A stretch of 64,000 bases of DNA, taken from Cytospora piceicola (Eukaryota > Ascomycota > Sordariomycetes > Diaporthales > Cytosporaceae). Made by a program: the position numbers and the translations under genes. This document shows, piece by piece, positions 49,572-49,740 of this stretch (within the stretch, counting starts at the first letter, position 1; every line of letters starts with the position of its first letter). Location of the stretch: positions 62,001 through 126,000 of the forward strand of contig JALQBC010000004.1 in the NCBI GenBank assembly GCA_023375675.1. Direction: 5' to 3'. The notes below the pieces were generated by a model, which was not told the DNA's origin, did not search any database, and saw only the letters and a list, made by a program, of their open reading frames with translations.

Positions 49572-49607
49572 GGTCTGGTGGTCTAGTGGTATGATTCGCG
49601 CTTAGGG

Positions 49608-49624
49608 TCTACCCTGAGTAAAAA
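49608..49624 (+). other. canonical tRNA intron
   Basis: Seventeen bases lie directly after base 37 of the tRNA, the standard site for eukaryotic nuclear tRNA introns removed by the TSEN endonuclease. A CCCT inside it can pair with the AGGG of the anticodon loop, as is usual for such introns. Confidence 0.8.
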
Positions 49625-49636
49625 TGCGCGAGGTCC

Positions 49637-49695
49637 GTAAGTAGAATCCTCAGTTCAAACACAATTCCGAGCAACAATATCTAACAATATAACAG
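49637..49695 (+). other. spliceosomal-type intron inside a tRNA gene
   Basis: The 59-nt insertion has donor GTAAGT, branch-like CTAAC ten bases before the end, and acceptor ACAG, the same profile as the protein-gene introns in this window (50-104 nt). It falls between the first and second base pair of the T stem, where no TSEN-type intron is expected, and does not touch the B box. It contains a B-box-like GTTCAAAC at 49653-49660. Whether it is spliced is unknown. Confidence 0.75.
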
Positions 49696-49733
49696 CGGGT
49701 TCAATCCCCGGCCAGACCCTCATATACAAATTC

Positions 49734-49740
49734 TTTTTTT
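49734..49740 (+). terminator. Pol III T-run terminator
   Basis: Seven T in a row begin 15 bases after the tRNA 3' end. This is the normal RNA polymerase III terminator, and it supports the tRNA gene being an independent transcription unit. Confidence 0.7.

Follow-up and report, generated by a model that had tools for sequence, protein, structure and literature searches.

A tRNA-Pro(AGG) gene occupies positions 49572-49719 on the plus strand of a 64,000-nucleotide (nt) stretch of Cytospora piceicola DNA (assembly GCA_023375675.1, contig JALQBC010000004.1, positions 62,001 to 126,000), referred to below as the window. The gene consists of three exons, all read on the plus strand, that make up a mature tRNA of 72 nt including the discriminator C. 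Exon 1 (49572..49607) carries the 5' strand of the acceptor stem, the D arm and the anticodon arm up to position 37; it contains TGGTCTAGTGG (49579..49589), which we take from its consensus to be the A box, an internal RNA polymerase III (Pol III) promoter element. A canonical tRNA intron of 17 nt follows at the 37/38 site (49608..49624), and 6 nt of it can pair with the anticodon loop. Exon 2 (49625..49636) comprises position 38, the 3' strand of the anticodon stem, the variable loop AGGTC (49631-49635) and C49. A second insert of 59 nt, spliceosomal in type (49637..49695), then separates positions 49 and 50, i.e., the first and second nucleotides of the T stem. Exon 3 (49696..49719) supplies the remaining T arm, the 3' strand of the acceptor stem and the discriminator C, and GGTTCAATCC (49698..49707) is presumably the tRNA's own B box. 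A T7 run at 49734..49740 is the presumed Pol III terminator. On re-reading, the coordinates given in a preliminary description of the window for the tRNA, the 17-nt intron, the 59-nt insert and the T7 run were correct; so was its statement that removal of both pieces restores a 72-nt tRNA, the acceptor, anticodon and T-stem pairs all being standard.

The 59-nt insert in the T arm has the hallmarks of an mRNA-type intron. It begins with a 5' splice site GTAAGT (49637..49642), ends with a 3' splice site ACAG (49692..49695), and has a branch-site motif TCTAAC (49680..49685) in which CTAAC spans 49681-49685 and the putative branch A is at 49684. A B-box-like element, GTTCAA, lies at 49653..49658. 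The boundaries are unambiguous: the preceding exon ends in C, the insert has G at both ends, and the next exon starts with C.

The same insert recurs in the genome (43,645,921 bases, 99 contigs). A search with the window locus gave eight matched pieces in six tRNA-Pro genes, and a whole-genome search for the Pro 5' half, allowing up to two mismatches, found eight genes against none in the reversed control. Six of these eight genes have the T-arm insert, always at the one site and on four contigs (C36, C1, C7 and C90): four of the five AGG genes (the window copy on C36, two in tandem on C1, and one on C7) and both CGG genes (on C90 and C1). The insert-free genes are the fifth AGG gene, on C20, and, on C9, the single UGG gene identified. 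The T-arm insert is thus real, and its presence in six tRNA-Pro genes makes it wider than was first stated. In the preliminary description, intact AGG copies elsewhere in the genome were one half of what would make the gene a pseudogene, the other half being the absence of a spliced product in RNA data; three more AGG copies carry the insert and one, on C20, is free of it.

The insert is exactly 59 nt long in all six genes. Its sequence identity is 88-95% among the AGG genes, 70% between the CGG pair and 55-73% between AGG and CGG genes; the length is kept although AGG and CGG copies differ by up to 45%, with offsetting one-base gaps. The tandem AGG pair lies at C1:939662-940090, its two gene starts 281 nt apart. 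The variable loop reads AGGTC wherever the insert is present (six genes) and AGGCC in the two genes without it, and the T of AGGTC creates a GT 4 nt upstream of the T-arm 5' splice site.

Reference introns for comparison were inferred between adjacent exons matching the chaperonin and P450 families, with GT-AG pairs chosen by reading frame and profile fit and without use of a splice consensus. Eighteen of 26 exon pairs gave a single GT-AG solution at the exact profile spacing and were kept; eight were dropped, and a few of the 18 may be misplaced. These protein-gene introns are 51-171 nt long (median 75.5); 59 nt is short yet inside the range. Ten of the 18 start with GTAAGC, GTGAGT or GTAAGT, and in 15 a motif of the CTRAY/TTRAY type begins 14-26 nt from the 3' end. 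All six T-arm inserts are GT-AG: the 5' site is GTAAGT in three, GTGAGT in two and GTACGT in one; the branch region contains TCTAAC in all six, with CTAAC beginning 15 nt before the 3' end in each; and the 3' site is ACAG in five and ATAG in one. On a matrix built from the 18 introns, the 5' sites of five inserts score 7.7-9.1 bits, the references themselves covering 2.5-9.1. The inserts therefore share with the spliceosomal introns of the fungus's protein genes a length range, 5' and 3' sites and branch position, and differ from them in having a tRNA gene as host, in being A-rich and in having no TTT. The earlier claim of a match to the protein-gene introns around the locus holds for length and signals, with the qualifications that 59 nt is short and that the introns compared lie elsewhere in the genome.

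Among the six inserts, 12 of 14 splice-signal columns are invariant versus 11 of 40 in the rest (Fisher p 2e-4). A chance origin of the splice-like ends is, as had been proposed, unlikely: of 127,882 stretches of 59 nt from both strands of the window, the only one having 5' and 3' sites at least as strong as those of the weakest insert, together with CTAAC in the branch zone, is the locus itself, which passes by construction. Group I and group II introns need a catalytic core of hundreds of nucleotides, and inserts of 59 nt, as found in all six genes, do not have one. By its ends, its branch motif and the exact restoration of the exons, the T-arm insert is best read as a putative U2-type spliceosomal intron. 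Folding of the whole precursors of the insert-bearing tRNAs gave no consistent picture.

A second kind of Pol III gene in this genome is interrupted in a similar way. The search for U6 gave two matches above the cut-off (47 of 2118 candidates scored). The gene at C63:24720-24818 is uninterrupted. The gene at C68:682185-682353 (minus strand) can be aligned to U6 only if a large insertion is allowed, and reading it shows two mRNA-type inserts: one of 53 nt (GTAAGT...CTAAT...AAG) and one of 60 nt (GTAGGT...CTGAC...CACAG) at ACAGAGAAGAT/TAGCATGG. The second contains GTTCAAGTC, an exact match to GTTCRANNC, which we take from the consensus to be the B-box core. This fungus thus seems, from these two inserts, to have its own Pol III gene with mRNA-type introns. 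The 5S copies scored (47 of 2275 candidates) have no insert and are all 120 nt. In fission yeast, an mRNA-type intron of U6 is spliced, and U6 introns of Schizosaccharomyces are reported to have a B-box match (PMC10484740, available portion); splicing of a Pol III RNA therefore has a known precedent. The case described here differs from the S. pombe U6 intron in that the host RNA is a tRNA, interrupted in addition by a canonical tRNA intron.

The B-box-like word, raised in the preliminary description as a possible decoy B box, is a constant of the tRNA inserts. GTTCRA is found at insert position 17-18 in all six, and in none of the 18 protein-gene introns; its columns are invariant at five of six positions versus 11 of 40 elsewhere in the inserts (p 0.015). 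The full core GTTCRANNC is present in none of the six, so that, compared with Schizosaccharomyces U6, the element here is missing the final conserved C, and a separate B box, that of the tRNA itself, is retained downstream. The intronic GTTCRA may help the binding of TFIIIC, the tRNA's own B box being 59 nt further from the A box; alternatively, it may be a relic of how the insert arose.

Evidence that these are living genes comes from the exons. Across the four insert-bearing AGG genes, none of 71 exon columns varies while 10 of 59 insert columns do (Fisher p 2e-4); in the two CGG genes the corresponding figures are 0 of 71 and 18 of 59 (p 1e-7). Dead genes should drift like their inserts, and the unchanged exons indicate that the copies are not dead. 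With the insert removed, the acceptor, anticodon and T-stem pairs are standard in 102 of 102 cases in the six genes (the D stem left out). AGG and CGG exons differ at eight positions, and acceptor pairs 3 and 7 are changed on both strands with pairing kept.

The main competing explanation takes the six genes as pseudogenes: an intron-like piece would have entered an ancestral gene, the copies would have multiplied, and tRNA would come only from the AGG and UGG genes that have no insert. These two genes do exist and score above the Rfam cut-off, and in the available part of PMC4090602 the T-arm insertions of eukaryotic tRNA genes, apart from those of nucleomorphs and Cyanidioschyzon, mostly occur as single copies, affecting one gene among many synonymous ones, and are regarded as pseudogenes. 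However, the exons have remained unchanged and the stems paired while the inserts diverged, and within the inserts the splice signals were conserved. Inactivation would also leave a single AGG gene for CCC and CCT, which account for 99 of 130 Pro codons (11 coding stretches, 4,510 codons), versus at least five genes for Thr(AGT), at least six for Arg(ACG) and at least five for Ile(AAT) in the nuclear tRNA gene list (63 of 1659 candidates scored; contig C65 excluded as presumably mitochondrial). Inactivation of the gene, one of the outcomes raised in the preliminary description, is contradicted by the recurrence in six of eight genes, the conserved splice signals and the constrained exons, though an insert-free copy on C20 exists; we consider it improbable.

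Even less probable is cleavage of the insert by the tRNA endonuclease, which would make it a non-canonical tRNA intron like those of archaea, nucleomorphs and the red alga Cyanidioschyzon. In those groups introns outside 37/38, including in the T arm, exist (PMC4090602, PMC3978253, both available in part), some of the T-arm ones accompanied by a second intron (same portion of PMC4090602), and bulge-helix-bulge motifs in D and T arms are mentioned in the accessible part of PMC8707768. As far as the partial sources go, those introns use a bulge-helix-bulge or, in the Guillardia nucleomorph, are 3-24 nt long, and many nucleomorph introns are without a defined bulge-helix-bulge; here, in contrast, the insert is 59 nt long and has spliceosomal signals. 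A strict bulge-helix-bulge at the T-arm junction, with intron +2 to +5 pairing with exon +2 to +5, is not formed in any of the six genes: none of the four central pairs is present in five genes and one of four in the sixth. Under looser criteria, pairing with the anticodon loop is possible over 6 nt for the canonical intron of each of the five AGG genes and over 3 nt for that of the UGG gene. Removal of the T-arm insert by the tRNA endonuclease is thus unlikely because there is no strict bulge-helix-bulge, and the conservation of GT...TCTAAC...AG would be left unexplained. The contrast is found within one nuclear tRNA gene, whose other intron is of the canonical kind (37/38, TSEN and tRNA ligase), whereas the T-arm insert lies between 49 and 50 and has splice-site and branch motifs. 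Since the T-arm site is not expected to suit the tRNA-splicing enzyme, the insert-bearing tRNAs probably need the spliceosome.

Spliceosomal introns are normally found in RNA polymerase II (Pol II) transcripts, and Pol II could transcribe the genes as parts of longer, spliced RNAs, in which case they would have no tRNA role themselves; this is equally improbable, given the A and B boxes and stem constraint, the T-run of 5-7 starting 13-26 nt past the acceptor stem in all six genes, and 100-nt flanks hardly more alike than shuffled ones in mean alignment (upstream 0.43 vs 0.41, downstream 0.49 vs 0.44), which argues against a shared Pol II unit. The preliminary description had both noted intact boxes with a terminator and allowed for a Pol II locus; the former extends to every insert-bearing copy and thereby disfavours the latter.

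Several points weigh against working genes with a spliceosomal T-arm intron. The GTACGT 5' site of the CGG gene on C90 scores low, 4.23, on the 18-intron matrix. Neither columns nor paralogues are independent, so the p values for exon versus insert and for the splice columns are rough, and gene conversion could homogenise the exons. The endonuclease test covered strict bulge-helix-bulge geometry only. The AGG gene on C20 and the sole UGG gene found carry no insert, and Pro decoding without splicing is therefore conceivable. In one CGG gene on C1 (CGG_C1c, near 75320, minus strand) a T5 lies inside the 35-nt canonical intron and equals the first downstream T5; it may weaken transcription or cause early termination. 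Avoidance of T-runs in Pol III inserts is only suggestive: runs above TT are found in none of eight inserts (six tRNA, two U6) and TTT in 13 of 18 protein-gene introns (p 0.0016, or 0.017 counting four lineages), a contrast confounded by length, TTT being present in three of the seven protein-gene introns of 67 nt or less.

The insert also hides its hosts from standard searches. ARAGORN found none of the six insert-bearing Pro genes unspliced and all six after removal of the insert in silico; five were then called Pro, and the window copy was miscalled Phe(aaa) by a wrong intron placement, its ends unchanged. In an Rfam scan at the curated cut-off the window copy, with the insert present, was not reported. 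A scan of the five other insert-bearing genes with E values up to 10 returned one at 18.1 bits (cut-off 29) and left four absent, and the insert-free AGG and UGG genes score 46.9 and 51.2 bits. Insert-bearing tRNA genes escape standard detection, and similar ones may be hidden in other fungi.

Several ideas on the origin and spread of the insert were tried. A transposon or dispersed repeat, an alternative of the preliminary description, fails as far as it was tested: with simple repeats and very common words skipped, and with the 3' half of the AGG insert as the query (the CGG type was not searched separately), up to three mismatches gave four genomic matches, all in tRNA-Pro(AGG) genes. That the insert arose when the anticodon loop and the canonical intron were partly duplicated was not established. 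The insert of the CGG gene on C90 scores 26 against the AGG gene on C20 (reached in 4 of 2000 dinucleotide shuffles), the best of 58 other tRNA genes scoring 22; when all six inserts are compared, the top score from a tRNA other than Pro is 20-28 and exceeds that of the Pro genes in five of them. Origin from a U6 insert was likewise not established: one tandem AGG insert (AGG_C1a) reaches 26 (18 of 2000 shuffles), and the other five do not exceed the best protein-gene intron.

No further tRNA gene with a T-arm spliceosomal intron was found by a search limited to the exact pattern CTAAC plus GTTCRANNCC. This pattern (CTAAC, AG, B box) gave 19 matches versus 46 in the reversed control. Of the 19, six correspond to the known Pro genes, and two are tRNA genes in which CTAAC comes from the anticodon loop (Val(aac) and Thr(agt) by ARAGORN); the other 11 are not tRNAs by ARAGORN, which misses unspliced cases. 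An A-box-like word is present in both tRNA genes and in one of the 11, which is no tRNA by eye. Outside this genome, the Pro-like 5' half matched 47 loci in genome_contigs (archaeal or bacterial) and two in viral_contigs, with nothing fungal among the 40 of 49 inspected; the remaining nine have a B box at the usual spacing. A longer pattern had no match in viral_contigs. The next gene downstream of the tRNA in the window is a phospholipase C gene, 91% identical in protein to its best named match, from Cytospora schulzeri.

Taken together, it is very probable that this tRNA-Pro(AGG) gene works, is transcribed by Pol III and combines two different types of intron, of which that in the T arm is spliceosomal. 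That the spliceosome processes this tRNA, the first possibility raised in the preliminary description, fits the sequence best: six of eight genes share the insert and its site, the splice signals are conserved, and the exons appear constrained. From the insert, its site and conservation, the exon constraint, the missing strict bulge-helix-bulge and the two U6 inserts, we infer transcription, removal, the machine responsible and the order of steps. Transcription by Pol III would yield a pre-tRNA from which, still in the nucleus, the spliceosome would excise the 59 nt; with C49 and C50 joined, the T arm would be rebuilt. Trimming of the ends and splicing by TSEN would come afterwards or proceed in parallel. 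The 37/38 intron would be an ordinary tRNA intron for TSEN and tRNA ligase, and the T-arm intron would be U2-type, the same intron being present in five more genes, three AGG and two CGG.

The kind of intron is known, and so is an mRNA-type intron in a Pol III RNA; what appears new is that the host is a nuclear tRNA and that one molecule holds a canonical tRNA intron as well. Among the titles and abstracts of the matches listed, which include few subscription journals, no spliceosomal intron in a nuclear tRNA gene was found, a weak negative. In the portions available, spliceosomal introns are said sometimes to interrupt noncoding RNA genes (PMC2586383), and tRNA introns are treated as being of the archaeal or group I kind (PMC11782384).

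A broader proposal is tentative and rather doubtful: most Pro-codon translation in this lineage would depend on the spliceosome, the AGG and CGG pre-tRNAs needing both machines, and the intron would contain a selected, TFIIIC-binding B-box-like element, as in U6. If true, introns in the Pol III genes of this fungus would be a distinct class, marked by internal promoter elements and avoidance of terminator-like T-runs. In the usual account, TSEN serves tRNA and the spliceosome mRNA, and the two are kept apart. A conserved spliceosomal intron in most Pro tRNA genes would, if confirmed, break this division and tie decoding capacity to spliceosome activity. It would also offer a natural substrate with which to ask whether a Pol II tail or a cap is required for spliceosome action.
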